Shown here in pieces: positions 1 through 60,422 of a DNA stretch of 64,000 nt. The DNA is from Hyaloperonospora brassicae (lineage: Eukaryota > Oomycota > Peronosporomycetes > Peronosporales > Peronosporaceae): positions 124,001 to 188,000 of the forward strand of contig CANTFL010001312.1 in the NCBI GenBank assembly GCA_947650285.1, given 5' to 3'. The position numbers were made by a program, and so were the translations under genes. Under the pieces are notes generated by a model. The model did not search any database, was not told the DNA's origin, and saw only the letters and a program-made list of their open reading frames with translations. Each line of letters starts with the position of its first letter. Within the stretch, counting starts at the first letter, position 1.

Positions 1-2
1 AC

Positions 3-1012: not shown

Positions 1013-1034
1013 GGGCGGAGCGCCCTACTAATTC
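1004..1034 (+). promoter_or_regulatory. gag-pol junction stem-loop carrying CAG-UAG (A1)
   Basis: GGTCAGTAGGG faces CCCTACTAATTC around the loop GCGGAGCG. The stop triplet TAG is at 1010-1012. It is the counterpart of the perfect 12-bp stem in element B at 12173-12204. In A1 the outer pairs are weakened (one C-A mismatch and G-T wobbles), consistent with decay. Confidence 0.65.
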
Positions 1035-1132
1035 AGCAACCTAACGAGAATTTGCAATTTTCTTGACAAAGTTGCTCCAGATATGCAATCGTTGTGTGTC
1101 TCTACACCTGATGATTAATTGACACTCACACC

Positions 1133-1900
1133 TTGAAGTTGCAAGTGACAAAGAATTTGCCGCTTCGTGATCTAGTTGACTGTGAGGCGTCGAACAACTT
1201 TGTTCGTCGCCAGCCGTTAGAGAGTCGTAGGCTCAAGTTTGTTGAGCGCGACATTCCTCTAACGATAATGACGGTGCGCCTTGTCACAGGCGCATCGATA
1301 ACCTTGAGAACATGTAGTGGTAACCTACTACAAGTTAGAGGACGAACAGTACGATGATGAATTCATCGAACTGGACCTGGATGACAAATTTGATGTCATC
1401 TGGGATTACCCTGGCTCAGAAGCTACAAGCCAAGAGTGAGCTGGCAGCATCGATCCGTGAAGATGCCTGCCACTTGTTCATCAGATGGACATCCGATGAA
1501 CGTCATGGAGATTTCACAAGCGTGTGGGTGTACTGCGAGTGAGTGCGATGGCCTCCCTTGCGGTACGGTCGTTAGCACGACTGCACAAGACCTCATTGTA
1601 GTTGATCACTACACTGTGGAGCAAGCTCCTGGCGGCTGTAAAGAAGTACAGGCGGCGACGAAGGTCCACCACTCGAATAAGTCGAGTGGACCGGGACATG
1701 GATGCATGCCTAGCGGGCAGCATCTTAGAAGAAAGAAGTCTGTTGCTCCCAAGGGGCAACATGAAAATCCTAGGTCGACTGGAGAGTCGACCGTAGAGGA
1801 TCGGTTCCTGACTGTACTTGCACAGCCACAGTCAGAAGACGTAGATGGAATTGGTCCTCACGTGCTTGAGGAAGGAGTTCCTTACGCATAGATTGCTGAA
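1133..1900 (+). pseudogene. A1 aspartic protease and protease-RT linker remnant
   Basis: LQVTKNLPLRDLVDCEASNNF is the degenerate active-site flank (DCGAS in A2 and B, here DCEAS), followed by RRQPLESRRLKFVERDIP, as in retropepsin-like Gypsy proteases. A frameshift near 1354 leads to a degraded VILGLPWL equivalent. From 1436 to 1891 there is an open stretch of about 150 codons containing CASECDGLPCGTVV. It links protease and RT, and most of it is missing in B. The Gly to Glu change next to the catalytic Asp would probably inactivate this copy. Confidence 0.8.
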
Positions 1901-1978
1901 AGATTAGGATCTCAGCAACCTGAGTAGAAAAGTCCTCAGCAGCCTGCGGATAAAAGTTTCCAGGAAGAAACCGAGACG

Positions 1979-3208
1979 TTGAACGTCTTGGTCAATGACG
2001 GATCAAGCGTAGGCGCTTACACGCTTAATCTGGTTGCGCCTCTGAAGTTAACTTCGGAGATAACTCAATTTCCAACGCTCGAAACGAAACGGTTCCTGCG
2101 TGATTTGCCTTGTGGTCAAGTCAAGAGGATCTGCATACTCGTCACAGCGGATGAGTATGTGGCCTGTATTCTATCGGCAACAGTGTTTACTGAGAACGAA
2201 CGGGTTCCCAGCAGCTCATCGATGGACGAAATTGTCCTCGATGAGAAGACTCGGATTGAGAGATACACGTCTCAATTCTGGAAGTCGCTTCAGGCAAATC
2301 CATTGTATAAGGATTTGATCGAATTCTAGGATGTGTTCCCTGAATACGTACCTTGCGAGTTGCCTAAGGAAAAAGGCACTCGACACGAGATCGAGCTCAA
2401 ACTGGGCTCGAAGTACTGTGTCATGAAGCAGTGGCTACTGCCTCGTGAACAAGTACTAGCGATCGACAAGTTTTTTGCCGATCGCTTAGCAGCGGGCCAT
2501 GTGAGGGAATCAACACCCCCTCACAGCTCTCCGACCTTCTGTGTGCGAAAGGCCACAGGAAGATGGCGGATAGTGCACGCATTCAACAAGTTGAATGCTG
2601 CAACGGTACCGGCTCAGACGCCGATACCGAGGAAGGACGTAATCATAGATGGTATGTCTAAGAGTACCATCTTTTCGTCCATGGATCTGATAGACGGATT
2701 CTATCAGATCCTCATGCGTGAACAAGACATCCCGTACACAGCAGTGAGCAACCCCAGCGGTATGCTGTGGGGGTGGCTAGTGATGCCACAGGGGCTGAGT
2801 AATGCCCCTGCAACATTTAACAGATGCGTTACAAATCTGTTGAGACCGGTGCAAGATTTCGCACCGAGTTACTTTGACGATGTGTTCGTTCATAGCCGGG
2901 CTATGGACGTGCAAGTTCACAAAGCACACGTTCGTCGGGTTCTTCAACTTATGCGCAGTCATAAGTTGTACGACAACCTCAAGAAGTGTATATTCGCGGC
3001 TAGCGAAATACCACTTCTTGGGTTCATCTTGGGTAAACACGGCGTACGCCCTGATCCCGAAAAGATCAAGTCGATCACCGACTGGCCCGTGCCAGTCGAT
3101 GTCAAGGGACTTCGATGTCTCTTCAGGCTAGCGGCGTACTTGCACAAGTACTCGCGCAACTACGCCGGATTGACTGCTCATATTTCTTCATTACTCAAAA
3201 AAATGTGA
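1979..3208 (+). pseudogene. A1 reverse transcriptase remnant
   Basis: A connector (1979-2329, LNVLVNDGSSVGAYTLNL to NPLYKDLIEF) ends at an in-frame TAG (2327-2329). It is followed by an open 291-codon RT (2333-3208). Visible RT landmarks are KATGRWRIVHAFNKLNAAT, SMDLIDGFYQI, MPQGLSNAPATFNR, the catalytic SYFDDVFVHS, and KKCIFAASEIPLLGFILG. This is the best preserved part of A1. The TAG in LIEF-stop-DVFPEY is shared with A2 and B, where an ancestral CAG (Gln) is likely. The RT stretch is markedly more similar to B than the neighbouring domains are. Confidence 0.9.
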
Positions 3209-3720
3209 AGTGGTCATGAAACGATGGCTACCCGCGTGCCCCCTGAAGGTATCAACCAGAGCTTGATGCAATCGCTAATATTGGCGATTGCAGATCAGGA
3301 CATACCATACCATGTGGTCTGTAGTGCCAGCGATTTTGCAATTTGGATGAGCGTTGATGCGATTTGACACAGATGGCGCAGAGTGCTTTATCTGCTATCA
3401 ATCGCGTCATCTGCAAGCAGCTGAGCGTAATCACCCAGTGCATCAAAAGAAACTCCTTATCATAAAAATTACCTGGCTTAGGTCCGCGTCTATCTCTTGG
3501 GAGATAGACCGTTCATCGTCTATACGGACCATGCGTCACTATGCACGGCCGTTAACAGTCCACATCTCTCGTAAAGAATGGCGAGGTGATTGTCTTTCTC
3601 CGCGGAGTACAATTTCTCCGTGGAGTATAAACCAAGACGACTGAATGTAGTCGCTGATGCTCTTTCGCGCCGACCCGATTTCGAGCCGGTGCGCAATCCG
3701 ACAGTGACGATAAGCCCATG
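3209..3720 (+). pseudogene. A1 RNase H remnant
   Basis: Pieces in several frames correspond to the intact B and D RNase H. They include SLMQSPILAIADQD, VVCSASDF (catalytic Asp replaced in the CDASDF motif), FDTDGAECFICYQSRHLQ, and ALSRRPDFEP near 3660-3690. At least four frameshifts separate them. The original enzyme would degrade template RNA during cDNA synthesis. Confidence 0.8.
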
Positions 3721-3779
3721 ATTGGACACTTACAGTCAGAGTGCCGTCGTCAACATTATTTGACGACGTATGGAAGGCC

Positions 3780-4670
3780 TACGCAAAAAATAAGGATCTT
3801 CTGCGCTCAATGTATCATCTGGCAAATTCAACTCGTAAATCGTTGAAAGATTGATCGGCTTTGTACCGTTCCTCATCGCATCGTTACACTACACACAACG
3901 AGCTGCTGTATGACACAGACGTTGCCGGCGACACGCCTCGTGTCGTCGTCTCCACACATAACATATTGCGCTTGCGTATCATGTATGTGTGTCACGATAC
4001 ACCAACAGGTAAACATCGTGGTAGATAAAAGACTTACCTTACGGTACGTCGTGACTTTTTCTGGCCCCTTCAGTATTAGTTTGTGCACAAGTACTTTGAT
4101 GCTTGCTAAGTTTGCCAACGCGTGAAGCCTAGTCCTTCATCCCGTGCACCGTTGCAGCCTCTACCTGTACCGACAGAGTGCAGGCAGTCCGTTTCCATGG
4201 ACTTCGTCTTCGGTTTCCCCGAAGACGACCTTAAGAATACTGGTATTCTAGTGTTCGTTGAATTGTTTAGGAATATGGTGCATCTTACTGCGGTACCCGT
4301 GTCGACCACGGCACAGGTCTGTGCTCGTGTATTTATCGACAAGATCTTTCGACTTCACGGGTTTTGCCGCGAACTAGTATCCGACCGGGACCCTCGGTCC
4401 ACGGCATATTTTAGCAATCCGTGTTCCGATCACTCGGAACGCGATTAAAGATGTCAACATATGACCACCCCGAAACAGATGGTCGGGCGGAACGCATCCT
4501 CAAGGAGATCCTTCGAGAATACGTCGGCTCGTTCTCGAGTTATAGCAAATTACTAACCCTGGTGGAATTCGCCATCAAGAGTCGGTGCATGCGTGTGTGC
4601 ATGCACACAACAATCTTCGTAAAGGGCTTACGACATTTACGCTTGTTTGCCCTACTAGAGTGAGACTCTT
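3780..4670 (+). pseudogene. A1 integrase zinc-binding and catalytic core remnant
   Basis: The HHCC zinc-finger flank is near 3950-4130 (CHDTPTGKH, then a damaged cysteine pair). The core follows at 4122-4448 with SMDFVFGFPEDD (first catalytic Asp), ILVFVELF, and ELVSDRDPRSTA (second Asp). The Glu-bearing region is at 4445-4530 (HPETDGRAERILKEILR). Frameshifts at about 4440 and 4560 separate the parts. Integrase would insert the cDNA into the genome. Confidence 0.85.
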
Positions 4671-5905
4671 GAATAGGGGGCGGAGGGACTCGCTCGATCA
4701 AAAACCGTGCTGGCTCTTGATCATCACGTGACGACATTAGCGTCGACACGTATCATACCGATGTCGATTGTGTCGACATCAAAGAAGAAGATCATTCCAA
4801 TAATAGCGTCATCGCTATTATTGAGTCAGATGACGATGACGATGCTGATGTTCTCAGCATCGCCAACGACTATTTTAGCGAGGATGATGACATCGTCGCT
4901 GATAAACAGAAAGCAGAAAGGACTCTTTCTGCAGTTTGCACAATGCGAACTAAACAAAGCAATGTCTCGTCAGCAGAAGGGTTTCAGCTAGACCGTGAAG
5001 CAGTGGTCCGTTTTGTGCAGGATTTCATCGCTCATGCGGTGGACCGGCAAAAACGGAACGCTGACAAGAATGGAAGAGCAAATGTGCTTTTATTTATTCA
5101 AGGCGACTAAGTACTACTATTTAAGGTAAACCTACCTAGACACGTAGTGACTAGTGTGAGCGGCAGTAAACTAATGCCCAAGCATATCGGCCCCTTTCGC
5201 TGCTAAGCCGACAAGACTTCGCATATACGATCGAGCTACCGCGCAGGACGCGCATGCATCCTACGTTTTACGTGGGACGTATCCTCCCGTGCTGTCAGTA
5301 CGAGGCCTCTTCCGACGATGAAGATACACACCACGTTCAAGCATCTACATCAGATTATTGCGCTCGTGGTCCAGTCGATCAGTCTGGACGCAAGAGAGGA
5401 GATCTAGGCATTCAACTATAAGATCTCTCTGCGAGCTATCCACATCTCTTCAACAAGGTAGCGGACATCGCGCTCAACCTGAAGTTGTGCGAGGGCGTAA
5501 TCGGTACGATCCTTCGCCCGATCAGCATATTGATCCTTGCGGTTCTGCCGCAAATAATCGGTCAGAGCGTAGCGCCTGGACCTCTCGTGATCCAAATCCT
5601 CGCGCAACTCAGCCATTGAGTGATATATCTTGTATTGGTCGAGATGGTGAGTCGAGCGACTTGGAGGAGTTACCCTCCTCCTCCACACTCTTCGGAAGAC
5701 TCAAACGGTGGTCAACGCATCCTTGTGCAGCGTACCTTGAGCCACCGTGACGATTCAGGATCAAGCAAGTGATCTCGTCCAGGGGCGGGGGCCTACACCC
5801 TCGTGGAACAGCTGGAAGCCTTGCTCTCAGAAATTGCTGGACGTCTCGGTCTCGTCGAACAGTACGACGAGACCCACCCTTTGAAGGAGGGCCATCGACT
5901 TTAGA
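4671..5905 (+). pseudogene. A1 integrase C-terminal region, acidic linker and chromodomain remnant
   Basis: After the core come an acidic D/E-rich spacer (about 4760-4900), a counterpart of VRFVQDFIAHAVDRQKRN (about 5005-5060), and a remnant of the GPF / THPTFYVG C-terminal integrase motif (about 5160-5290). A low-complexity linker follows, and then a broken chromodomain (about 5695-5880, resembling the intact GCQRFLVERILNHRGDSES of B). The chromodomain places the element among the chromoviruses. The linker lies opposite the coiled-coil segment of the antisense ORF. Confidence 0.75.
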
Positions 5906-6053
5906 TCACCCGGCGCGTTCGTAAAGGGGATGTAAAGTCTCAATTCCGTGGTAAATATCAGCCGAGATGCGAGCCATTCAGTAGAGATGATTAGGGAGGA
6001 GGGCTTTCCTAGAAGCGCGAACAGAGTTGTCAATACAACAAGGACAGTTCACT
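5410..6053 (-). pseudogene. A1 antisense ORF, C-terminal part (coiled coil)
   Basis: This reads opposite to pol. Between 5688 and 5416 it encodes MAELREDLDHERSRRYALTD and then KDRTDYALAQLQVERDVRY and IARREIL, a heptad-rich, charged helix. It aligns with KDRSEFAFAQLESERERRR and TARREA in element B and with INELAARREI in element C. Near 5940-5985 the fragment ARISADIYHGIETLHPLYER matches AHISAEMRDAIANLQSVYKR of B. Frameshifts and stops show decay. The gene continues upstream at 13811-14793 beyond the nested element B. No function is known to me. The coiled coil suggests oligomerisation. Confidence 0.7.
6049..6053. repeat. Target-site duplication of element B, left copy (tcact)
   Basis: The five bases tcact directly precede the left LTR of B and recur at 13806-13810 after the right LTR. 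The uninterrupted site with a single tcact is seen in A2 at 44782-44786. Confidence 0.95.
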
Positions 6054-6495
6054 TGTAACGGGGCACTGTTGACTACGTACTGGTTGACCAGTACGGAGTA
6101 TACTTCCACTGACGACAGTGGTCGACAGTGCCCTGCTAGGTGTTTTAAGGAAACACAGAGGAAGGAAAGGAGACTAAGTAGTCAGGCTAGTCTCTTGGTA
6201 AAAGTAAAACTGTATTAATATAATTAAGTTCTATAACTCCTTGAATCTCTGTTGTCCTGACTTAATCATACCAATATAACTACATGTATGACGACGTCTA
6301 CTCATTACTCATTGCGCGGGTCTAGCAGCGATTGGTGGGCTGATATCATCACGATATCAACCAATGAGTAGACCCTTCGGTCATCCCAACAATATCACCA
6401 TGTCTTGTGATATTGTTATAAGGATAATCGACGTAATATTCTTTATTGTCAGATTGTTTTGATGACAATCTCATGTAACGGGCTACCCCGTTACA
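6054..6495 (-). repeat. Element B 3' LTR
   Basis: It runs from TGTAACGGGG to CCCCGTTACA and is nearly identical to 13367-13805. It holds strong hairpins: 6076-6095 (CGTACTGG/CCAGTACG), the compound stem 6296-6373 (GTCTACTCATT/AATGAGTAGAC) and 6388-6417 (AACAATATCAC/GTGATATTGTT). It is the 3' LTR with respect to the minus-strand gag-pol. Confidence 0.95.
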
Positions 6496-6509
6496 TCACC
6501 CCTCCCTTA
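6496..6509 (-). promoter_or_regulatory. Element B polypurine tract
   Basis: Read on the minus strand this is TAAGGGAGGGGTGA, directly abutting the 3' LTR, as expected for the plus-strand priming site of an LTR retrotransposon. Confidence 0.75.
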
Positions 6510-6626
6510 TCTGATAGTCACCGTGTGACTATCGAAAACTTGATGCCACCCGTTGGACACCAGCGGGACAGAGAGCACTTGTTTGGTCATACCCATTCAC
6601 TCCTGACCTTGCCTTGCATAGTTAAC

Positions 6627-8239
6627 ATGTCTATGCGAGGTGATTCGAAGACCACACATCCTGCTGCTGTGCCAGCCTCTGCGGCAGACGATTCGTCGTC
6701 TGCTGCTTGTTCTACGTCTGCAGCAGAAGGTGCAGCAGACGCACGCGGTATCGCACCACGTGCACATGATAACCTTGGCAATGAGGTCATCAATTATGGC
6801 GAGTCAGACGTGCCTGAATCGCAACGTTCTAGAGGCATCCCGATCACCGGTGGTGCCTCATCGTTCGTCAAGAGCACTTTCGAACGAACGGACTCGTGAA
6901 ATGCATCACAGTCGGTTCGGCAGTGATGATGAACTAAATAATGAGGACTACTATGCCTCACCAGTATCAACTCGTGCTTCCCCGCAAGAGCGTGATGACG
7001 ATGTCTCTCGCCATCGTCATTCTGTAAGCCGTGGTACCGAAACAGGTACCACTTTAAAGCGTGGTGAGCTCAAGCCGTGGCGCTTGCCCGAGCAGCTCAT
7101 CAATAGCTTGTCTCACGAACAAGCCAAAACCATCGAATTCCTTTATTCGATGCAACTGAGCTCCATGGCTTGGATCCCAGCGCGAGTAACTTCCGCGCTG
7201 AAGAAGAATTCTATCTCGATGCCTTCCTCAGACATCGATCTTATAATGGAAACTAAAAGCGTGACAAGAAATCGCTTTCGTTAGCGTGGAACGCCTTTGT
7301 CCAAAATGTCAAGAATTTTGGAGGAGAAGGATGGCTTAAGATGCTTGAGACGATACGCCTCAAGTTTGAGAAGCGAACGCCAACCGGTGCAAGGTACCGG
7401 CTGCATCGTTAGTCGAGTTACGCAGACATTCCATGCCTCAATTGGGTGATCCTTGTGCTAGCTGTGTTGACAACTCGCAACGTGCACATAGGGACGTGTT
7501 TTACCAAAGTTCGCCCTGGGGAAGGGCACACATCTCGGCTGAGATGCGGGACGCGATTGCAAACTTGCAATCCGTCTACAAGCGCCAAAATCGCGTGTTT
7601 ACCGATGGGCCCGAGTACCTATCGGATGCGTCTCGTCATACTGGTGGGCGAGACTTTCAACGTCAGCCATCAGCTGGGAACGAGGTTCCCAGCTGTCAAA
7701 GGAATGTGGGTACACACGCCACCGGACGAGGTAACTCGTCCTTGATTCTGAATCGCCACGGTGATTCAAGATACGCTCCACAAGAAAGCGTTGACAACCG
7801 TGGGAATCCACCAGTGGTTCCAGTGGCGGTGGAAAGACAAGGTCCGGCTCAGCCGCCGGACCTGCACGATACTTTGGGTAACCACGAGCGTTACCTGACT
7901 GAGCTATAGGAGGACGTCGATCAAGAAAACGATCTTCGGCACGACTTGCAGTCGGACGTGCGACGTCTTCGTTCCGATCGGGAGAAGGACCGATCGGAAT
8001 TCGCGTTCGCTCAGCTTGAGAGTGAACGCGAGAGGCGTCGTTTGCACGACGAGCTAGAGACGGCTCGTCGCGAGGCCGCGTCGATGAAGGATCAAATCCT
8101 TTCGACGAAGGACCAACTTTAGTGTTTGGTCCGTGATCACAAGAATCTGTTGGGGATTCTTGAGCGCGCCGGTTATCTCCGTCCTCGCAAGAGGCCTCGT
8201 ACTGATGGTACGGGCGGAGACGACCAACATAAAACGTAG
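6627..8239 (+). pseudogene. Element B antisense ORF (opposite to gag-pol), slightly broken
   Basis: The ATG at 6627 starts a Ser/Ala-rich N-terminus (MSMRGDSKTTHPAAV, to 6896). After a frameshift near 6890 a polar region with FGSDDELNNEDYYA and LPEQLINSLSHEQ follows. A second shift near 7265 leads to LAWNAFVQNVKNFGGEGW, and a third near 7420 to GDPCASCVDN and AHISAEMRDAIANLQ. In-frame TAGs lie at 7907 and about 8120. A C-terminal coiled coil (KDRSEFAFAQLESERERRR) and a basic tail (RPRKRPRTD) end at TAG 8237-8239. It overlaps the pol 3' end by about 640 bp. The middle region (7260-7600) lies outside pol yet is recognisable in A (AFIGTIENIGRDVW) and C (GDPRASCVD, HISAEIRDAITDLQ), so this frame was under protein-level selection. 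No known family is recognised. Confidence 0.75.
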
Positions 8240-9137
8240 GATGCGTGCGCATCCTACGAGGCAACTCAATCGTGTATGCATTGCTCTTGCGGTGCAATAC
8301 ACGAAAGGGACCGATGTATTTCGGCAGTAGTTTACTACTGCCGACATTAGTGACTACATGTCCAATAAAGTTTACCGTAGACAGTAGCACTAGGTCGTTA
8401 ACCTTAAATGAAAGAACATTTGCTCTTCCGTTATTGTCTGCGTTCCGTTTCTGGCGGTCCACCGCATTTGCGATGGAGTCCTGAATGAAACGGACTACCG
8501 CCTCTCGAGTCGGCAGGAAGTTTTCTGCTGACTCGTTGTTGTGTTTTTCAGTGCCCTTCGTGCGCACTGCTAAAAGGTTCTTATCTTCTTCAACGAGGGT
8601 GTCTTCTTCCTCGCTGGCATTGTCGTTGACGATGCTGAATATCTCAGCATCTTTATCAGTGTCTGATGTAGCAGCAGCGTCATCGCTACTGCTAAACTCG
8701 ATTTCCTCGATGTCGACGTTGTCGACATCGGCATCAAACGTATCGGCGTGAGCGGTGATACGTGATGAGCAAGAGCCAAAACGATTTTTGCTCGAGCGAG
8801 TCCCTCCCCCTCTCAACTCAGAGTCACTCTGGATGAGGGCGGGAATATGTGGGTGGCGTAAGCCATTCACGTAGAACGGTGTATGCGTTGTGGACGCATG
8901 CACGGAGTTGTTGATGGCAAACTCAACCATCATTAAGAACTCACTCCAATGTGAAAAGAAGGGGACGTATCCACGAAGAATTTCTTCGAGGACACGATTT
9001 GCACGTTCTGTCTGACCATCTGTTTCAGGATGTTCAGAGGTTGACATCTTCAACCGTGTTCCCAATGTGCGGAACACGGATTGCCAAAACGCCGCCGTGA
9101 ACCAAGGATCACGGTCGGATACGAGTTCACGGGGCAA
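7599..9137 (-). pseudogene. Element B integrase core (C-terminal half), linker and chromodomain
   Basis: A long open 512-codon stretch begins PRELVSDRDPWFTAAFWQS (second catalytic Asp), followed by HPETDGQTERANRVLEE (catalytic Glu), FAINNSVHASTTHTPFYVNG, an acidic spacer, VNDLVLLSTVNF, and PKYIGPFRVLHR / THPTFYVGRLRP (integrase C-terminal fold). A Pro/Ser/Arg-rich linker follows, then a complete chromodomain near the end (residues about 445-505, GCQRFLVERILNHRGDSES to DSWEPRSQLMADVE). The chromodomain would direct integration to marked chromatin. The linker and chromodomain lie opposite the antisense ORF. The segment itself is intact but is cut off from the upstream core by a stop and frameshift at 9140-9200. 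Confidence 0.9.
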
Positions 9138-9197
9138 ACCGTGGAGTCAAAACACAGTGTCGATGAAGACACGCGCACAACCGTGTGCGTTGATCTA

Positions 9198-9690
9198 TTA
9201 TGGGACTGGAGCAAGATGTACCATCTTGCTGAAACGATCCACAAATACAAGAATACCATTATTCTTGTTAGTGTCTTCGAGAAACCCGAAGATAAAGTCC
9301 ATGTACACGGACTCCCAACACTCTGCCGGGACCGACAGAGGTTGTAACGGTGAACGGAATGACGGACTATGCTTCACCCGTTGACAGACCTCGCAAGAAC
9401 GAATGTACTTTCGGACAAACTGATACTGGAGGGGCCAGTAAAAGTCACGTCTGACCGTGAGGTAAGTCTTTTCTCGGCCACGATGCCCGCCAGACGGCGC
9501 ATCGTGACACTCGAAAATGATGCGTAATCGCAATTCATCATGATCGGGAACAACGACACGAGGCGTGTCGTCGGCAACTGTTGTATAGTACAGCAGGACA
9601 TTTCGAGTAGTGTACCGATCCAAAGAGGAACGGTACAGGGCCGGCAAATCCGACAAGGATTTCCGGATGGGTTCGCAAGATGACCCAATC
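9198..9690 (-). pseudogene. Element B integrase zinc finger and N-terminal core
   Basis: An intact HHCC motif is visible (ECHDAPSGGHRGREKTY with the two His, then SCEVCQRVK with the two Cys). It is followed by YMDFIFGFLED (first catalytic Asp) and GILVFVDRFSKMVHLAPVP, after which a stop ends the frame at 9198. Upstream it joins the RNase H reading frame through a frameshift near 9690. Confidence 0.88.
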
Positions 9691-10550
9691 TAACGGAGGA
9701 GATTCGTGTCTCCTGCGTATGCCTTCCGTACGTCGTCGAATAACGGCGACGGCGGCACACTGATGAAAATTGTCGCAACAGTGAGCAAGGCCTCACTGTT
9801 GACTCGGGTCGCTGGCTCGAAGTCGGGCCGACGTGATAACGCATCAGTGACGACATCTAGTCGTCCTGGCTTGTAATCCACGGAGAAGTTATACTCCGCG
9901 AAGAAGGACAGCCACCTCGCCATCCTTTGCGAGAGGTGTGGACTGTTTATGGCCGTGCGTAGTGGCGCATGGTCCGTATAGACGATGAACGGTCTATCCC
10001 CCAAGAGATAGTCACGAACCTCGGCCATTGCACACTTCATGCCAATGCGTTCCTTGTCATGCACTGGGTAATTGCTTTCAGCTGGTTGCAGCTGACGCGA
10101 TTGATAGCAGACGACGAGCTCTGCGCCGTCTGTGTCATAATGCATCAACGCACAGCTGAAAGCAAAATCGCTGGCGTCACAGACCACATGAAAATGTCTG
10201 TCCTGATCTGCAATCGCCGAGATTGGCGATTGCATCAAGCTTTTCTTAATGCTTTCAAAGGAACGCTGACATTCAGCGTTCCATGATAACTTCACATCTT
10301 TCCTGAGCAAGAAAGTAAGATGAGCAGTCATATCGGCGTAGTTGCGCGAGTACTTGTGCAAGTACGCCGCTAGCCTGAAGAGACATCGAAGTCCCTTGAC
10401 ATCGACTGGCACGGGCCATTCGGTGATCGACTTGATCGTTTCGGGATCAGGGCGTAAGCCGTGTTTACCCAAGATGCACCCAAGAAGTGGTATTTCGCTA
10501 GCCGCGAATATACACTTCTTGAGGTTGTCGTACAACTTATGCCTGCGCAT
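9690..10550 (-). pseudogene. Element B RT thumb/connection and RNase H
   Basis: A 286-codon open frame starts in the RT thumb (KKCIFAASEIPLLGCILG, GLRPDPETIKSI). It continues into RNase H with FHVVCDASDFAFSCALM (catalytic Asp), the YQSRQLQPAESNYPVHDKE segment, RPFIVYTDHAPLRT (catalytic Asp), and DVVTDALSRRPDFEP. All key acidic residues appear present, making this one of the least damaged domains in the window. It ends at KAYAGDTNLLR before the integrase linker. Confidence 0.9.
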
Positions 10551-11180
10551 AAGTTAAAGAACCTTACGAACGTGAGTTCAGCCGATTTGAACGTCCGTCC
10601 TTCCATCCATAGCCCGGCTATGAACGAACACATCGTCAAAGTAACTCGGTGCGAAATCACGCACCGGTCTCAACACATTTGTAACGCATCTGTTGAATTT
10701 TGCAGGGGATTACTCAGACCCTGTGGCATCACTAGCCACTCCCACAGCATACCGCTGGGGTTGCTCACTGCTGTGTACGGAACATCCCGTTCACGCATAA
10801 GGATCTGATAGAATCCGTCTATCAGATCCATGGACGAAAAGATGGTACTCTTAGACATACCATCTATGATTACGTCCTTCCTCGGTATCGGCGTCTGAGC
10901 CGGTACCGTTGCAGCATTCAACTTGTTGAATGCGTGCACTATCCGCCATCTTCCTGTGGCCTTTCGCACACAGAAGGTCGGAGACTGTGAGGGGGTGTTG
11001 ATTCCCTCACTTGGTCTGCTGCTAAGCGATCGGCAAAAAACTTGTCGATCGCTAGTACTTGTTCACGAGGCAGTGGCCACTGCTTCATGACACAGTACTT
11101 CGAGCCCGGCTTGAGCTCGATATCGTGTCGAGTGCCTTTTTCCTTAGGCAACTCGCAAGGTACGTATTCAGGGAACACAT
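10551..11180 (-). pseudogene. Element B RT fingers/palm, frameshifted
   Basis: MFPEYVPCELPKEKGTRHDI to RESTPPHS (11178-10985) is followed by a frameshift into RKATGRWRIVHAFNKL and SMDLIDGFYQILMRERD (10969-10690). A second shift leads to the catalytic SYFDDVFVHSRAMDG (about 10610-10655). It is nearly identical to A1 and A2 at nucleotide level, including the TAG (11182-11184) just upstream in LIEF-stop-DVFP. An extra insertion after MDG relative to A1 is shared in size class with A2. Confidence 0.88.
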
Positions 11181-11181
11181 C

Positions 11182-11589
11182 CTAGAATTCGATCAAATCC
11201 TTATACAATGGATTTGCCTGAAGCGACTTCCAGAATTGAGACGTGTTTCTCTCAATCCGAGTCTTCTCATCGAGGACACTTTTGTCCATCGATGAGCTGC
11301 TGGGAACCCGTTCGTTCTCAGTAAACATTGTTGCCGATAGAATACAGGCCACATACTCATCCGCTGTGACGAGTATGCAGATCCTCTTGACTTGGCCACA
11401 AGGCAAATCACGCAGGAACCGTTTCGTTTCGAGCGTTGGAAATTGAGTCATCTCCGAAGTTAACTTCAGAGGCGCAACCAGATTAAGCGTGTAAGCGCCT
11501 ACGCTTGATCCGTCATTGACCAAGACGTTCAGTGTCTCGATGACCTCCTGGGAAATCACTTCCACAGGATCTGGGTTAGCTTTCTCCAC
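11182..11589 (-). pseudogene. Element B protease-RT connector
   Basis: A 135-codon open stretch, EVIETLNVLVNDGSSVGAY to LQANPLYKDLIEF, is collinear with 1979-2329 of A1 and ends at the shared TAG. Relative to A, roughly 300 bp of linker between protease and this segment is missing in B. Confidence 0.75.
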
Positions 11590-11756
11590 AATTTAGTGAT
11601 CATCTACAGTGTGTTATTGTACAGTCGTGCTAACGACCGTATCACAAGTGAGGCCATCGCACTCACTCGTAGTACACCCACGTGAGTGTGGGCGTTCCAA
11701 GATATTCGTCAGGTGGTTATCTTAGGAGAAGTGGCAGGTATCGTAACCGATCGATA

Positions 11757-12194
11757 CTACCAACTCGCCCTTAGCTCGTATTTCCTGAGCCAAGGCAACC
11801 CTAAGATGACGTCGAGATTGTCATCTAGGTCAAGCACGATGAAATCATCATCGTACTGTTCGCCTTTGACTGTGTAGTGGATTCCGAATGCGCGTTTCTT
11901 CGCAGTGATCGATACGCCTGTCGCTAGGCACACCTCCATCTTCGTTGGAGAGATCTCCTGCTCCACGAAGTTATAACTTACTGCCTCTAGAGACTGGCGA
12001 CGAACAAAATTGTTCGACGCCCCACAGTCAACTAGGGCGCGAAGTAAATAGTCTTTTGTCACTTCTAACCTTAAGATGATGAGTGACACCTCATCACCAG
12101 GTGCAGAGAGACACAGAAATTGTGTGTCGGGAGCAACCTTCTTCAGGAGATTCGAAAATTCTCTTTGTTGCTGGATCAGTAGGGCGCTCCGCCC
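11757..12194 (-). CDS. Element B protease, in frame with gag across UAG
   Basis: Immediately after the gag UAG (12195-12197) the same frame continues GRSALLIQQQREFSNLLKK, then SAPGDEVSLIILRLEVTKDY, and the protease active-site flank LVDCGASNNFVRRQSLE. The second half of the fold follows (FIVLDLDDNLDVILGLPWL), before a stop at 11757. No stop interrupts the 145 codons between the UAG and 11757, so expression would depend on suppressing the UAG. The active site reads Asp-Cys-Gly, not the usual Asp-Thr/Ser-Gly. Confidence 0.8.
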   Translation of the reverse strand, partial: GRSALLIQQQREFSNLLKKVAPDTQFLCLSAPGDEVSLIILRLEVTKDYLLRALVDCGASNNFVRRQSLEAVSYNFVEQEISPTKMEVCLATGVSITAKKRAFGIHYTVKGEQYDDDFIVLDLDDNLDVILGLPWLRKYELRASW

Positions 12195-12204
12195 CTACTG
12201 ATCC
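12173..12204 (-). promoter_or_regulatory. gag-pol readthrough stem-loop (element B)
   Basis: On the coding strand GGATCAGTAGGG pairs perfectly with CCCTACTGATCC over 12 bp around the loop GCGGAGCG. The gag stop UAG (12195-12197), in CAG-UAG-GGG context, lies inside the 5' arm, and gag and pol share one frame. Equivalent stems exist in A1, A2, C and D with paired substitutions. This matches the general arrangement of UAG readthrough signals in gammaretroviruses, though there the structure lies downstream of the stop. Confidence 0.75.
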
Positions 12205-13220
12205 CGACCGTTTTTTGATGGTCCACCTCGCTGTTGCGACTTCGCAGCAGCAACGGACCCTCGACCTTCAGTTCTTGTTGCTGGTGGGTGAACACTGCGC
12301 TCAGCACCCCGAGGTCCTGAGCGGGGGATACTGCGTTCATATGCGTAGTGTCTCAGTTTATGACAGCGATGACATCTCAACATGTGCTTGTCATTCGCAG
12401 GGCGAGGTTTCTCGCCCTCGACTTGACAGAGGTCCATTGGTTCTGGACCTCCGAATGCTAATCGTCTCTGTGGACGATGCGGGGTCAACTTAGCGTAAGC
12501 CTGCCTCACACTATAATCTTCTTGCTCCGCTGCAAAGATTGCCTCTGAGAGCGTCTTTAGCTCTCCGCGGAACAGGTGGTCCCTAGCGGGAACGTCTGAA
12601 AGCCTTCGAATAAAGATTGTGGTCAACACAAACTCACTCACAGGGTTCACTACCATGCAGCTTGCAAGGTAGCGTACATGTTGAGCGTAAGCGTGAACCT
12701 TACGATTACCCTGCTTGATTTGCAGGAGCTCCGAAAGAGTCCTGAGCTCTGCTCTGGTCGGCTCAAACGTCTCACTGAGCAGGGTCTTGAAGATTCTCAA
12801 CGACTTAAACACATGTGGGTCGTGCAACTTGAGGTTCAGGGCCCAAACTCTGGCTTCTCCTGCCAGGTTAGACTGAGCGAATGAGACTTGCATTCGCTCA
12901 TCATCGATGCGACGAGCATCGATGGCATCGTCCAGCTCGACGAACCACCTCAACAAGGAGTCTTCCTCGACTCCCCGATACTTGGAGACCTCTAGTTTTA
13001 GAGACTCCCGTCGACGCTCACGCGTCCGCTCTGCGGACTGAGACTGTTGTTGTCTCAGTGCTTCGGTCCGCTGGTGATCTTGCTGTTGTAACAAGGCCAC
13101 CTGTGCTCGCGACTTATCAAGTTTTCGTTGCAAGAACTTGCTAATGACGACATGTTACTGGTCTCTATCCCTTGAGGATAGCATGGCCGAGGTGGGTTCC
13201 TCGCCAACGGTCGAGCTCAT
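12195..13220 (-). pseudogene. Element B gag, one premature stop
   Basis: The ATG at 13220 begins MSSTVGEEPTSAMLSSRDRD. A TAA at codon 22 (13155-13157, CAA in the A copies) is the only stop before the terminal UAG. Downstream of it are a coiled-coil-like Gln/Arg-rich stretch (ALLQQQDHQRTEALRQQQ), the matrix/capsid core (SKYRGVEEDSLLRWFVEL, ARVWALNLKLHD, LLQIKQGNRKVHAYAQHV), and a zinc-knuckle remnant with two cysteines (RCHRCHKLRHYAYERS, the last Cys position being Arg). A basic tail follows. About 340 codons is typical of Gypsy Gag. One codon change would restore the whole frame, so this copy died recently. Confidence 0.9.
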
Positions 13221-13346
13221 TCGTTCGATCTCACTCCATTAGATGTCGCTCAAATGGGAGTAGCTTTCATGGGTTCCGTGAAAGCTGTAGCCGTCTACAT
13301 CTTCCAACATTTTCATGTTGGGCGATGGGGTTGTGGTCCTTGGACG

Positions 13347-13364
13347 GACTACAAAGTGCTACCA
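13347..13364 (-). promoter_or_regulatory. Element B primer-binding site
   Basis: Two bases inside the 5' LTR the minus strand reads TGGTAGCACTTTGTAGTC. TGG pairs with a tRNA CCA end. Element D has TGGTAGCACTTGTAGTC at the same place (31275-31291), so the site is shared. The cognate tRNA would end GUGCUACCA. I cannot name it. Confidence 0.6.
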
Positions 13365-13366
13365 GG

Positions 13367-13805
13367 TGTAACGGGGCACTGTTGACTACGTACTGGTTGA
13401 CCAGTACGGAGTATACTTCCACTGAAGACAGTAGTCGGCAGTGCCCTGCTAGGTGTTTAAGGAACACAGAGGAAGGAAGGGAGACTAAGTAGTCAGAAGA
13501 GTCTCTTGGTAAAAGTAAAACTGTATTAATATAATTAAGTTCTATAACTCCTTGAATCTCTGTTGTCCTGACTTAATCATACCAATATAACTACATGTAT
13601 GACGACGTCTACTCATTACTCATTGCGCGGGTCTAGCAGCGATTGGTGGGCTGATATCATCACGATATCAACCAATGAGTAGACCCTTCGGTCATCCCAA
13701 CAATATCACCATGTCTTGTGATATTGTTATAAGGATATTCGACGTAATATTCTTTATTGTCAGATTGTTTTGATGACAATCTCATGTAACGAATACCCCG
13801 TTACA
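13367..13805 (-). repeat. Element B 5' LTR
   Basis: 439 bp, from TGTAACGGGG to CCCCGTTACA, differing from the left copy by about a dozen substitutions and three single-base indels. It lies upstream of gag on the minus strand and so carries the element's promoter. Confidence 0.95.
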
Positions 13806-13810
13806 TCACT
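13806..13810. repeat. Target-site duplication of element B, right copy (tcact)
   Basis: tcact follows the right LTR and matches 6049-6053 exactly. Confidence 0.95.
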
Positions 13811-14793
13811 CGCCACGAGAGGCAAGATAAACCTGCATCTCGAGACAATTGGTGAATATAAACCGATCACAGGTTGGCGAATTCTCTTCAAACCTTTTGC
13901 GAGCTGCAACAAGTTTGTCCAGCCAAACGTCACGGCCAATATTTTCGATGGTGCCGATGAAAGCGCTCCACGCCTGTACCATTGAAATGTCGTCTCTGTT
14001 GCGGTTGCCGTGCTAACATCGATGTCTTCTTTAGACATCGATGTAAAAATCATGCTCAGTGCGATAATTATTTGCACTGGGATCAAGTCCATGGATCCTA
14101 GACAAGTCAAAGAGTGAAATTCGAAAACTTCTAGTGGTATATCCATACCACTCTCTTAACCTGCTCAACGTAGGCATCATGGCTTGTTCTCAGGAGAAGA
14201 TCGTAACGCGTTGCGATACTTCTACTCCTGCGTGTTGCTAGCATTAAAGCTGACTACACGATCGCCTCGATACCTAGTATTGATGCGGATATGGATACGA
14301 TGAATCCGCGAAGATTCAGTGACATTCTCATGAAGACTGGCGATCTCATGCTTTACAATCGCCTCGTATGAATACGAGCGCGATCGGCACGATTCCGGAG
14401 ACAAGGTCGCAGACGCGTCGAGTAAATTGAGCATCTCATGAAGCAACTTTTAGTTTAGAGTGCCGCGAGAGTAGCAGCCGTCGTTTCCGCAACCTTACGG
14501 TCGGGCTTTGCGAACGGTTTCGAGTCGGAAGAATCCGAATCGCTTGAATAGATCACCTTTATCACGGGATCTTGGTCTATGGGACTACCACCCGCAGCCG
14601 AAGCTGCGGATGAAGAAGCTACACGTGGATGATTACGTGCTCCTGCAACTACGAATTTTGCAGCCTGCTTAATGGTAACAGCAGGTGACCTGACACCTGC
14701 TGCTGAGTCTTGGACAGCTTGTTCTCCGGCTGCACGAATCCCTGCAGCCGCTTCAATTGCGGCCTTGTTCGCGCAGCGCATGGACGAAAACGT
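13811..14793 (-). pseudogene. A1 antisense ORF, N-terminal and middle parts
   Basis: Read on the minus strand from about 14793 (MTFSSMRCANKAAIEAAAG) it gives a Ser/Ala-rich N-terminus with SSSAASAAGG, then a D/S-rich patch (IYSSDSDSSDSKPF). A middle region follows, with YSYEAIVKHEIASLHENV and RGDRVVSFNASNTQE (14446-14222). The conserved block VQAWSAFIGTIENIGRDVWL (about 13970-13910) corresponds to AWNAFVQNVKNFGGEGW of B and YALNAFVRNVEDLW of C. Stops and shifts separate these parts, and B was inserted inside the ORF. Its end is at 5410-6053. Confidence 0.65.
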
Positions 14794-14914
14794 CATGCGC
14801 TGAAAAGTTGAGATGAGAGGAAAGACCAACAAGTGCTCCCTGTCCTCAGAGCGACACGACGGTAGTCGCATTGTCATCAATCAATCAAATCACTGACTAG
14901 AGTGACGGATTGTT

Positions 14915-24155: not shown

Positions 24156-24160
24156 CACAG
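24156..24160. repeat. Target-site duplication of element D, left copy (cacag)
   Basis: cacag precedes the left LTR and is repeated at 31771-31775 after the right LTR. Confidence 0.93.
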
Positions 24161-24637
24161 TGTAGCGGAGCTACACAGCTCCTTAAGTCAGAGGAAGACT
24201 TAACGCTCTACGGACATCTTTGGTTTTACGAACCCGAATCAGAGATTCAAAAAGCTCGATAGCTTACGGTCCCTGTTTGAGGGGGACCCAACGATTCAAA
24301 ATAATCACAGCACAGAGTGCTCAGGAGCAGCTACCTTTACAGGTATTGCTAGCTCCTACCGATCAAAGACGCCTCGTAAGGCACGTGCCTTTCAGTGATC
24401 GAAAGGAGAGCTGAACTTCATTTCTTCTTTTAACCTAAAGGAACACCTTAGAACAACGTAATTAACCTACTCGCTAATGTCCTAAATAAAACCTCTCAGA
24501 AGATCTCGTAATCAATGGTTGACAGACATCAGTCTTCAACAATTGATACTGTGTTCTGCTATCGTTTAAGGGGAGCCCCATCCCTTGTGAGCACCACACC
24601 TATTGTCGACTACCAGCCGACGTGCAACTCTTTTAGA
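24161..24637 (-). repeat. Element D 3' LTR
   Basis: It aligns base for base with 31294-31770. Its inner edge reads AACTCTTTTAGA where the other LTR has AACCCCGTTACA, so the canonical terminal inverted repeat is lost on this side. Confidence 0.93.
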
Positions 24638-24702: not shown

Positions 24703-26100
24703 GTGCGTGCTACAACCTCGCGGTTCAGCAGAACACGAAACACCGTGGCATCGCCACCCCATGAGTCCCCGATTCTCTCTTACTACCTCGGCATTGATGT
24801 GGAGGAGAACTATGGTAGTGATACCGATGTCTTTGGTGAAGAAAGGACATCGTTCGACTTACCAGTGCAAGAGTCAACGCCTCATATTACAAACCCATTT
24901 GTCGAACGTGGTGAAACCACCGCGCAAGGAGCGCAGCATAATGCAACAGATGAAGGTGAGCGCGTAATCACCAACCCGCTCGATGATCGACATAATTTTA
25001 TTTTCCAGCGAGAGGGCGTGCTCTACGTCGCACTCATACCCAGACGGTTATTCAAAATTGGAGTGGCAACGTGTTTTCAACACTTGACGAGGAGCAACGT
25101 CTCCGTCAAACGGAAGGCCGTAGCCTCGCAACATGGGTCCTTGGACCAGAGGCTACGTCGCCAGAAGACATCGCATTTCGCCTGTACATACATGAGAGGT
25201 ATCTTGAACCATTTATGACCACCCAAGGTCAATGCAAGGCACACCTTGAAGACTTACCTCGTGTTTTTTTGGCTCGACCAAATAGGGGCTTACCCATCTT
25301 GTTATTTGCCGGTTAGTTGCATAAGGAGGAGAAACACTCGTTCATCCGCTAGGTATACCGCAACCGAAAACTCAGCAGTGTCCCATCACTGAGGGAAAGT
25401 GCCAGTGTAAATGATGTTCGTCTCAAATGAAAGATTCGGTACGAATACGCCAAGCTCAAGGCCAGAGGCCAGTTGCGTACACCTACTCACTATGCTTCGG
25501 CTACGCCGGTAGCCATGGTTTCCGAGCCTAAGGCGCGGACTAACCCGCTACCTCCCACCACTATTGGTGGGAAGCCGTATCGGTCGATGGAAAACACTTG
25601 CCACGATATACTTAAACATCCACGGCGTATGGGCAATCCTGCCGAAGGGGTATCTCATACTCCCACGAAATCTCCGACTCCGGGTACCCTCTCCACTTCA
25701 CCAGATACTGGTATTGGCCCTGAAGACGACGTCGTTTCGGGATCCTCACTACATGAAACGGATAGGTTCCTTGCTCATCGATAAGCGTCGGTGGTGGTCG
25801 GTGTACCGAGAGAGGAGCATGAGAAGGTGCTTCTCGGGCTGAGTGGTCTCCATGAGACTTTGAGTAGGACCCAGAGTGCGTTTGACGCGATGCGACCCCG
25901 TGTTGAGGTGTTGTAGTTGGTCCAAGCCCGTGTCCAGGCATTGGAGTCGGGCCAGGCCCGGATGGAGGCTCAGCTTGACCTCTTAATACGGATTAAGCAA
26001 CCGATGGGCAGGCCAACCTACGTGGCGCAAGCGTCTTCAAGTTCACGTGGGACGGATCCCGATACGGCTAAAGCAAGCCAACGTAGAACACGGGGGTGTG
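24703..26100 (+). pseudogene. Element D antisense ORF, broken
   Basis: On the plus strand, opposite to pol, 24703-25090 encodes an acidic region (LGIDVEENYGSDTDVFGEER). After a frameshift near 25075 the frame continues with LDEEQRLRQTEGRSLATWVL and IHERYLEPFMTT. It stays readable, with stops near 25315, 25350 and 25430, through 25473-25784. A coiled coil follows at 25803-25990 (EEHEKVLLGLSGLHETLSRT; LVQARVQALESGQARMEAQL). The order acidic or low-complexity N-terminus, globular middle and C-terminal coiled coil opposite the pol linker and chromodomain is the same as in A, B and C. I did not find clear residue-level similarity to B, only matching architecture. Confidence 0.55.
25612..25941 (-). 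pseudogene. Element D pol C-terminus with chromodomain
   Basis: After a Ser/His/Pro-rich linker the frame encodes YPFHVVRIPKRRRLQGQYQY, LVKWRGYPESEISWEYE and a short tail. These are the three beta strands and helix of a chromodomain with the aromatic pattern largely kept. It ends pol. The linker overlaps the antisense coiled coil. Confidence 0.85.
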
Positions 26101-31291: not shown

Positions 31292-31293
31292 AG

Positions 31294-43310: not shown

Positions 43311-44625
43311 TAATTCGGTGCATGCGTCAACTCAGCACGCACAGTTCTTCGTAAATGGCTCACTCCATCCATGCCTGTCCTCCCTGTTCGATTGTGCTTC
43401 TAGGTTAAGTATGGGAGGTAATCGCTCGAGAAAAAACGTTCAGACTATTGTTCATCACTTGTCGACGCTAACGTCGTCACCTATCATGCCGATATCAATC
43501 TTGTCGACATCGATGAAGAAGATCATTCCAATAATAGCGATGACGCTATTATTAAGTCAGATGACGATGACGATGCTGATGTTTTCAGCATCGCCAACGA
43601 CCATTTTAGCGAGGATGATGACATCGTCGCTGATAAACAGAAAGCAGAAAGGACTATTTCTGCAGTTTGCACAATGCGAACTAAACAAAATAATGTCTCG
43701 TCAGCAGAAGGGTTTCAGCTAGATCGTGAAGCAGTGGTCCGTTTTGTGCAGGACTTCATCGCTCATGCGGTGGACCGGCAAAAACGGAACGCTGACAAGA
43801 ATGGAAGAGCAAACGTGCTTTTATTTATTCAAGGCGACTAAATACTACTATTTAAGGTAAACCTACCTAGACACGTAGTGACTAGTGTGAGCGTCAGTAA
43901 AATAATGCCCAAGTATATCGGCCTCTTTCACTGCTGCTCCGACAAGGCTTCACATACACGATCGAGCTACCGCGCAGGACGCGCATGCATCGTACGTTTT
44001 ACGTGGGGCTTATCCTCCCGTGCTGTCAGTACGGGGCCTCTTTTGACGATAAAGATACACACCACGTTCAAGCATCTACATCAGATTATTGCGCTCGTGG
44101 TCCAGTCGATCAGTCTGGACGCAAGTGAGGAGATCTAGGCATTCAACTATGAGATCTCTCTGCGAGCTATCCCCATCCCTTCAACAAGGTAGCGGACATC
44201 GCGCTCAACCTGAAGTTGTGCGAGGGCGTAACCGACACGATTATTCGCCCGATAAGCATATCGATCCTTGCGGTTCTGCCGCACAGAATCGGTCAGAGCG
44301 TAGCACCTGGACCTCTCGTGATCCAAATCCTCGCGCAACTCAGCCATTGAGCGGTATATCTCGTATCGGTCGAGATGGTGAGTCGAGCGACTTGGAGGAG
44401 TTACCCTCCTCCTCCACACTCTTTGGCAGACATAAACGGTGGTCAACGCATCCTTGTGAAGCGTATCTTGAACCACCGTGACGATTCAGGATCAAGGGCG
44501 AGTGACCTCGTCCAGTGGCGGGGGCCTACACCCTCGTGGAACAGCTGGAAGCCCCGCTTTCAGAAATTGTTGGACGCCTCGGTCTCGTTAAACAGCACGA
44601 CAAGACCGGACCTTTGAAGTAGGGC
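43311..44625 (+). pseudogene. A2 integrase C-terminus, acidic linker and chromodomain
   Basis: TINNSVHASTQHAQFFVNGS is followed by a Ser/Asp-rich acidic spacer and a VRFVQDFIAHAVDRQKRN equivalent (43738-43790). A linker follows, then GQRILVKRILNHRDDSGSRA and LVQWRGPTPSWNSWKP (44435-44580), a recognisable chromodomain in one frame. Confidence 0.8.
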
Positions 44626-45781
44626 CATCGACTTTAGATCACCCGGCGAGTTCGTAAAGGGGCTGTAAACTCTTAATTCCGTGGTAAATATCATCCGAGA
44701 TGCGAGCCATTCAGTAGAGATGATTAGGGAGGAGGGCTTTCCTAAAAGCGCGAACAGAGTTGTCAATACAACTAGGACAGCTCACTTGCCACGAGAGGCA
44801 AGATAAACCTGCATCTCGAGACAATTGGTGAATTTAAACCGATCACAGGTTGGCGAATTCTCTTCAAACCTTTTGCGAGCTGCAACAAGTTTGTCCAGCC
44901 AAACGTCACGGCCAATATTTTCGATGGTGCCGATGTAAGCGTTCCACGCCTGTACCATTGAAATGTCGTCTCTGTTGCGGTTGCCGTGATAACATCGATG
45001 TCTTCTTTAGACATCGATGTATAAATCATGCTCAGTGCGATAATTATTTGCACTGGGATCAAGTCCATGGACCCTAGACCAGTCAAAAAGTGAAATTCGA
45101 AAACTTTTAGTGGTATATCCATACCACTCTCTTAACTCGCTCAACATAGGCATCATGGCTTGTTCTCAGGAGAAGATCGTAACGCGTTGCGATACTTCTA
45201 CTCCTGCATGTTGCTAGCATTGAAGCTGACTACACGATCGCCGCGATACCTAGTATTGATGAGGATATGGATACGATGACTACACGAAGAGTCATTGACA
45301 TTCTCATGAAGACTTACGTACTCATGCTTTACAATCGACTCGTATGAATACGAGCGCGATTGGTTCGATTCCCCCGACCAGAACTCATAATTGTTGGATA
45401 TATCGATCCGTACATGGCGCAGAGTCTCTTCTAGAATGTCACGAGGTGCATCGGTCGTCGAGCCTGCACCCACAGCTTTACGGCCGGTCTTTGCGGGCGA
45501 CTTCGAGTCAAAGGGGGGTCCAACTCGACCGTATCGATCACCTTTATATCAGGGGTGACATCCATGGGACTACCACACGCAGCCAAAGCTGCGGATAAAG
45601 AAGCTTAACGTGGATCACCACGTGTACCTGCAACATTGGGTGTTGCAGGCTGATTTTCAACTGCAGTAGGAAATGCGACGCGTGCTGCTGAGCCTTGGAC
45701 TGCTTGCTCTCCAGCTGCGCGCATCCGTGCATCCGCTTCAGTGGCGGCCGTGGCATCGCAGCGAATGGACGAACTTGTCAT
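44147..45781 (-). pseudogene. A2 antisense ORF, broken but uninterrupted by insertion
   Basis: From the probable start near 45781 (MTSSSIRCDATAATEAD) it gives a Ser/Ala-rich N-terminus. The middle has YSYESIVKHEYVSLHENVND and RGDRVVSFNASNMQE (45473-45198) and the AFIGTIENIGRDVWL block (about 44950-44890). The coiled coil is at 44354-44147 (MAELREDLDHERSRCYALTD, YALAQLQVERDVRYLVEGMG). Several frameshifts are present. This copy shows the whole layout in one piece, about 1.6 kb, whereas in A1 it is split by B. Confidence 0.65.
44782..44786. other. Empty target site corresponding to the element B insertion in A1
   Basis: A single tcact between GACAGC and TGCCACGAGAGGC. In A1 the same flanks are separated by B with tcact on each side. 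Confidence 0.93.
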
Positions 45782-59397: not shown

Positions 59398-60210
59398 CTA
59401 TATTCACGCAATCTCGCGACGAGCCGCCAGCTCGTTAATCAGGATACGACGCTCTCCATCTTTCCTTACTTAAGAAACCGCAAGTTTTAATCGATCGACT
59501 CCGATATTTATCACGATAGCGCTCGACGGTCGCCGCTAAAACGTGGCGAAGATTGTTATGTGATCGACGTCCTCACGCGACTCTAAGATGCCGCTCTCGT
59601 GCCTATTGAACTCATCTTGTAGGTACGACAACCGATTCAAGCCTACATTTTCGTGATCCCATCGCAAGCGCTGGTGGGATCGCGCATGGCCAACTTTTTT
59701 TTGCTTAGCGTATCGTGAGCCACCGTGATTTGGAGGGGATGAGGACAAGCTACATTTTCCGCTGACGAAGGCCTCTAACTTTCTATGACATCGAAGATCC
59801 TCGTGTGTCAGCTGATGGTCGACGTTGGAGGCCTTGTTAAGCAAAGCGATGAGGCTCGTTTGATGCATCAAATGAATATTCGAAAACTACGTGCCTAAGG
59901 CGCTCGTGGACGTATTGCAAATCAGTTATCGCGTCACGAATCTCAGCCGAGATGTGTGACCCACCCCAAATCAAGCTAGGAAAATATTCGTCTCGATTGG
60001 CATGTTGCAATTTGTCAACGCAGCTTGCACGTGGGTCACCCGACATGCGGCAATGGATATCTGCCTCACGAGACGACCGATAGCGTCAAAACAATTGCAC
60101 CGCTTGTAGTTCCCTTTGTCGACCTTAGTAAATCTTCTAGAAAGTTTTAGAAGCAATGCTTTACTCCATAAGTCCTCAACATTGCGGACAAAGGCATTCA
60201 AAGCGTACAT
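59398..60210 (-). pseudogene. Element C antisense ORF, middle and C-terminal parts
   Basis: Read on the minus strand: YALNAFVRNVEDLWSKALLL (60207-60148), then GDPRASCVDKLQHANRDEYF and SHISAEIRDAITDLQYVHER (60046-59900), then YLQDEFNRHESGILESREDV, and finally GERRILINELAARREIA ending near 59400. Each block has a partner in the same order in B (AWNAFVQNVKNFGG, GDPCASCVDNSQRAHRDVF, HISAEMRDAIANLQ, ARREA). The protein frame is better recognised than pol in this old copy, which argues for past selection on it. Confidence 0.7.
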
Positions 60211-60422
60211 CAGAGGTATTTTATAGCGTTCATGGTTGACGCTATATTATCGAAATTTAAGCAAGGGATCGACCTGTAATTATTCTTAGCGCAAAAATTA
60301 CTCCCGCTGATGGTAAGATCGTGAAGCTTTCCAGCATCGAAGAAAGGTGTTTTCTGATACTTGCTTCTCTTATTAGTGTGGTAAAGTGAAATCTCAAAAC
60401 TGCGTGATGAGTCCCCAGACAC

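Follow-up and report, generated by a model that had tools for sequence, protein, structure and literature searches.

An antisense gene beside the 3′ long terminal repeat of Gypsy elements in Hyaloperonospora brassicae, with constraint that switches strand along its overlap with pol

Do the long reading frames that run opposite to pol, next to the 3′ long terminal repeat (LTR), in Gypsy elements of the oomycete Hyaloperonospora brassicae encode a protein, and what might such a protein do? The window analyzed here is a stretch of 64,000 nucleotides (assembly GCA_947650285.1, contig CANTFL010001312.1, positions 124,001 to 188,000 of the forward strand), for which the initial annotation had claimed an antisense gene in the elements designated B, A1, A2, C and D, with conserved blocks in A, B and C. 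We found such a gene in all five: in B it occupies the stated position, tblastn matches to the core of the protein locate it in A1, A2 and C, and a match to a database relative locates that of D. There is strong support for a genuine, protein-coding antisense gene. The genes are as follows:

6627..8239, plus strand: antisense gene of element B, ATG at 6627 and last matched codon ending at 8236; broken here by frameshifts and in-frame stops, open in other copies
44147..45781, minus strand: antisense gene of A2, ATG at 45781; core match with E 2.7e-32 (tblastn)
13806..14796, minus strand: N-terminal piece of the A1 antisense gene, cut by B; start codon at 14796, core match of 49% over 93 residues (E 2.5e-27)
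5410..6053, minus strand: C-terminal piece of the A1 antisense gene, cut by B; from the printed reading frames and DNA identity to A2
59398..60377, minus strand: partial antisense gene of C, matched by tblastn in its core at 59900-60082 (55.7% over 61 residues, E 1.5e-14) and 60276-60377 (E 6e-4)
24745..26069, plus strand: antisense gene of D, a second protein family; tblastn with the 433-amino acid (AA) relative P0065

The position given earlier for the B gene proved correct, and the proposed splitting of the A1 gene by the insertion of B is borne out by identical 5-bp flanks (TCACT, 6049-6053 and 13806-13810) on its two sides. Two ends required adjustment: the A1 gene had been closed at 14793, three bases short of its start codon, and the C gene at 60210, well inside the match. 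The B and D genes lie opposite pol, since Pfam places the pol domains on the minus strand; for A this follows from its plus strand matching the B minus strand across the pol region, and for C from its plus strand matching the A1 plus strand at 56906-57192. As had been claimed, the middle blocks are outside pol; the coiled coil and the linker preceding it, by contrast, lie opposite pol. The antisense frame runs into the end of pol in both B and D, and the final 641 bases of the B gene (to 8239) face pol. The arrangement is thus that of the aORF-3R type, with a frame antisense to gag-pol between pol and the 3′ LTR, the B gene also entering pol (7599-8239), and with many family copies showing conservation at the protein level. 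The distance from the antisense start to the 3′ LTR is 131 bases in B, 140 in A2 and 116 in D. An initiator-like TTCACTCC is present at 6596-6603, its A lying 29 bases before the B start codon, and 16 of the 21 B copies retain it; around the A1, A2 and D start codons no such motif was found. The D frame of the window opens with GTG (24745), and six of seven related copies have ATG.

Other copies were sought in the genome containing the window, which comprises 100.6 Mb in 898 contigs. Within the pol-free part, it was the antisense strand that had the longest open frame in each of the 21 B copies (median 215 AA vs. 111 AA for the sense strand), which argues that the antisense frame did not arise by chance. 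Counted from stop to stop, single antisense frames in the 20 further B copies extend up to 540, 491, 452 and 389 AA. An open-frame survey with the 529-AA relative P0012 as query yielded 3195 first-look candidates, and 82 places were scored. No stop was present in 65 of them, open frames being mostly 536-541 AA long; the frame is thus open in many copies, and the closure in all intact relatives that the initial annotation had named as refuting is not seen. At least 26 of the 82 places contain a chromodomain, which among the matches listed was on the opposite strand in all 26 and on the same strand in none, the C-terminal end of the antisense match lying 437-440 bases away; the comparison used 150 listed of 2539 candidate rows and does not make the remaining 56 places chromodomain-free. 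In two of these 26, at C79 and C40, sense frames open over 1666 and 1561 AA face stop-free antisense frames of 540 and 539 AA. Of the three long C-type places, two (C756 and C32, not C458) likewise overlap one of the listed chromodomain matches, again on opposite strands.

Two places stood apart. G000:C781:546712-547992, open over 522 AA, has 52% identity to the Peronospora matthiolae protein, vs. 42-48% for the other 81 listed, and perhaps represents another subfamily. The B copy L046 has LTRs that are 98.2% identical and a core protein only 65% identical to P0001; its longest frame, 107 AA, is the smallest among the longest frames of the 21 B copies, and it may belong to a divergent or recombinant subfamily.

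The question of which strand is under selection depends on how the antisense gene and pol are laid against each other:

6960..7520, plus strand: folded middle domain (core) region of the B antisense gene, outside pol; corresponds to model residues 140-330
7930..8239, plus strand: coiled coil and C-terminal basic segment of the B gene, mostly opposite the pol linker between the SH3 domain and the chromodomain
7599..9146, minus strand: C-terminal part of B pol (sense), overlapped by the antisense gene over 7599-8239
7632..7784, minus strand: chromodomain of B pol (Pfam PF00385)
8205..8396, minus strand: SH3_Tf2-1-like domain of B pol, which the antisense gene reaches with no more than its final 35 bases
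25615..25707, minus strand: end of the D pol frame with the chromodomain motif YLVKWRGY, opposite the D antisense gene

The ratio of nonsynonymous to synonymous substitution rates (dN/dS) was estimated with NG86 over pairs of copies, with 95% intervals from a codon bootstrap. The B set comprised 19 of 21 rows, L048 and L052 having been dropped as likely near-duplicates of L051, judging from the lists of open frames. In the B core the antisense dN/dS was 0.41 (0.31-0.55); four of the other frames gave 0.80-1.10 and the fifth, frame -2, which shares wobble positions, 0.49. Stops per 1000 codons numbered 6.8 in the antisense frame vs. 26-46 in the sense-strand frames. The N-terminus showed a ratio of 1.49 (0.95-2.58). 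The overlap is phased such that the second codon position of the antisense frame pairs with the third of the sense frame, and the third antisense position with the second sense position. Constraint on one frame therefore raises the ratio of its counterpart, and the constrained strand can be read from the direction in which the two ratios swap. Over the chromodomain (7600-7790) the ratio was 0.41 (0.27-0.60) for the sense and 0.98 (0.64-1.53) for the antisense frame. The linker gave the reverse (antisense 0.68, 0.54-0.87; sense 1.29, 1.01-1.68), as did the coiled coil (antisense 0.58, 0.45-0.75; sense 1.06, 0.80-1.42), and in the pol-only region values of 1.08 (antisense) and 0.73 (sense) were obtained. 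Along the pol overlap of B, constraint switches strand: it is on the sense frame at the chromodomain and on the antisense frame at the coiled coil.

For A, the core dN/dS was 0.54 over 14 chosen copies, the other A loci being the same places fetched twice or places close to them. Between A and B copies dN was 0.45 with dS saturated, and control frames gave 1.01 to 1.45; the mirror frame had a ratio of 0.32 because wobble positions are shared. Values in the middle region of B and A are thus not near 1. The D core was more weakly constrained than that of B or A (eight copies; 0.74, 0.60-0.93). The D chromodomain gave 0.50 in sense and 0.95 in antisense, the coil 0.58 in antisense and 1.31 in sense, and the N-terminus 0.68 in both frames. 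D thus shows the same switch of strand as B, but its pol-only control (antisense 0.65, sense 0.78) is weaker, so that the case for D is made by its relatives and by how the two frames differ, not by the ratio alone.

The elements that carry these genes are located as follows:

6054..13805, minus strand: element B, a Ty3/Gypsy element with chromodomain, inside A1; gag, RNase H, SH3 and chromodomain by Pfam
6054..6495, minus strand: 3′ LTR of B, upstream of the antisense start codon
13367..13805, minus strand: 5′ LTR of B, from LTR comparison
38069-38523 and 45922-46376: LTR matches of element A2
24159-24628 and 31292-31761: LTR matches of element D

The LTR pair of B is 97.1% identical and its termini are TGTAAC...GTTACA. 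Its assignment to chromodomain-bearing Ty3/Gypsy elements follows from gag, RNase H, chromodomain and LTRs in the window copy and from protease, reverse transcriptase, RNase H and integrase in copy L038. A1 and A2 share 92.5% DNA identity over 1-6055. For element C, LTR comparison found no LTR pair in the window.

Relatives of the proteins are numerous. The B protein has 63 in the databases, or 119 when a 17-sequence profile was used, and the D protein 131, of which 120 were listed. Named sources are P. matthiolae, P. destructor, P. effusa (D only), H. arabidopsidis and H. brassicae, and P. matthiolae relatives form clusters of 1335 and 524 sequences. One of them, P0060, departs from the common C-terminus, and its last 28 residues match the plus strand at 8202-8285 (61%, E 1.5e-6), opposite the SH3 domain of B pol. 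This tail has evidently been read in a shifted frame, and the match shows the same antisense arrangement in P. matthiolae. The H. arabidopsidis relatives P0063, P0201 and P0215 bear the UniRef name "RxLR effector candidate protein" and look like element-derived proteins filed as effectors.

A/B/C and D proteins share a predicted layout of disordered N-terminus, folded middle, linker and long coiled coil. The AlphaFold2 model of P0012 (67-row alignment) has low confidence at 1-138 and 334-419, a helical domain at 140-330 with block means mostly of 75-90, dropping to 58-67 at its edge (141-150) and at 281-310, where a cysteine cluster lies, and a single long helix at 424-514 with confidence near 90. 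The model of the D protein P0076 has low confidence up to 75, structure at 79-242 (weak at 106-131), again low confidence at 247-354, and a long helix at 357-411. Overall scores for predicted template modelling (pTM) were low, 0.38 for P0012 and 0.31 for P0076. The A/B/C proteins end in basic tails (KKQRTDGT, KKPRTDGT, KKQRTDST, KKARTDST, KRARTDST), which we take to fit a monopartite nuclear localisation signal; the D protein is without this tail. The earlier view that D has the same layout without residue identity agrees with structure prediction and with profile comparison, and its grouping with A/B/C as a homolog does not: hhalign detected no kinship (probability 0.4%, E 0.14, alignment outside the core). 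D may have been invented separately or may be a relative that has diverged beyond recognition; the similar position of its coiled coil, facing the pol linker, agrees with either. A Pfam-A scan of 13 proteins (nine at E≤1, four at E≤10) found no family above cut-off and reported neither TRP28 (PF04195) nor bZIP, although a long helix is predicted; a profile search of the genome with PF04195 was uninformative, as no control genome matched. PDB and fold searches gave no match to the antisense protein.

The initial annotation had suggested a role in control of transposition or antisense regulation. From the layout and by analogy with HBZ of human T-cell leukemia virus type 1 (HTLV-1) and with Grande gene23, we tentatively propose that the antisense protein dimerises, resides in the nucleus and regulates transcription or integration of its own element. 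It would be made from an antisense transcript initiated within the 3′ LTR or next to it; the coiled coil would pair the protein, and the basic tail would bring the A/B/C protein into the nucleus. There the level of sense RNA or of integration might be set through contacts of the middle domain with the integrase complex, with chromatin or with DNA of the element, an effect comparable to that of HBZ on HTLV-1 expression. The loosely constrained pol linker beneath the coiled coil may have given room for the overlapping frame. A wider version of this proposal, about which we are more doubtful, is that an HBZ-like self-regulator encoded in antisense arose two or more times in the chromodomain Gypsy elements of oomycetes, once in A/B/C and once in D. 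In each case its coiled coil would have been overprinted on the strand that faces the loosely constrained pol linker, and selection would thereby pass, within a single overlap, from the sense chromodomain to the antisense coiled coil.

We prefer self-regulation to two other protein functions. The protein might be a component of the particle or pre-integration complex, connecting integrase or Gag with the host's nuclear import or its chromatin and not acting on transcription. Nuclear import has been raised for plant antisense open reading frames (ORFs) in PMC7264820, and the coiled coil with the basic tail, as well as the presence of the antisense gene and a chromodomain pol in the same elements, would suit such a component. 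It would, however, have to be produced from a separate antisense transcript, and neither Pfam nor fold searches found a Gag- or integrase-like family or fold; we consider this function unlikely.

Somewhat less likely still is a factor that counters host silencing of the element. VANDAL-encoded VANC proteins act in this way in Arabidopsis. The many similar open copies suggest recent amplification, and small RNAs of Phytophthora infestans match Gypsy elements along their whole length, according to PMC3522703; against this, the antisense proteins resemble no Pfam family above cut-off.

It is very improbable that antisense RNA is the functional product and the open frame a by-product of codon structure on the opposite strand. 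A frame that faces coding sequence can remain free of stops, and over the linker both frames are largely open (6.1 and 4.7 stops per 1000 codons); yet the low core ratio of B belongs to a region outside pol where sense-strand frames are closed, and at the B coil constraint is on the antisense and not the sense frame. Equally remote is a captured host gene or tyrosine-recombinase fragment, to which the UniRef name of relative P0003 ("Core-binding (CB) domain-containing protein") and a four-helix stretch of the P0012 model (196-272), presumably about the size of a core-binding domain, might point, since P0003 had no Pfam match at E≤10 and PF02899 found nothing in this genome while matching 12 of 14 control genomes. 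For the whole-protein model, the fold-search matches listed do not include the core-binding fold.

Self-regulation remains the preferred function, and the setting has a wider bearing. Antisense genes of LTR elements have been described mainly from plants and retroviruses, the function of those in retrotransposons being open. Here, in a lineage outside plants, a single genome holds first-look candidates by the thousand, with many of the frames open and with two protein families of one layout, and the gene and pol form a natural overlap whose constrained strand differs from one domain to the next. Both an origin by overprinting and the value of the antisense protein to the element thereby become testable from sequence alone. 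Protein sets of downy mildews hold many copies as uncharacterised proteins, and a few under the name of effector candidates.

Among known systems, Chronos and Archon are oomycete Gypsy elements, Chronos having a chromodomain, according to PMC5348765, a paper in which the word "antisense" does not occur; they differ in having an additional plant/archaeal-type RNase H, none of which was found by Pfam in the single B-copy pol frame scanned (L038). The likening to plant antisense ORFs in the initial annotation was apt. According to PMC7264820, Grande gene23, RIRE2, Retand ORF4/TRP28 and PvRetro13 lie between pol and the 3′ LTR, occur in most copies of a family and have no known function, and the Grande product is nuclear with its own promoter. 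They share with the oomycete gene an extra gene antisense to gag-pol close to the 3′ LTR. The oomycete gene differs from them in its protein, none of the 13 scanned matching TRP28, and in extending over the end of pol; a chromodomain is moreover present in B and D, Retand being a non-chromovirus according to PMC11963269. Boty of Botrytis/Sclerotinia likewise has an antisense ORF in an LTR element of a filamentous pathogen, a comparison made through its citation in PMC7264820 only. HBZ, according to PMC10186651, is expressed antisense from the 3′ LTR of HTLV-1, is nuclear, lowers viral expression, and joins an N-terminal activation domain to a C-terminal bZIP for partner binding. The oomycete protein has a similar layout, from which we claim no sequence kinship; it differs in that Pfam finds no bZIP family, and its promoter and activity are presumed. 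The closest known kind is that of the plant antisense ORFs of Grande and Retand and the fungal one of Boty, and the closest working analogue is HBZ of HTLV-1.
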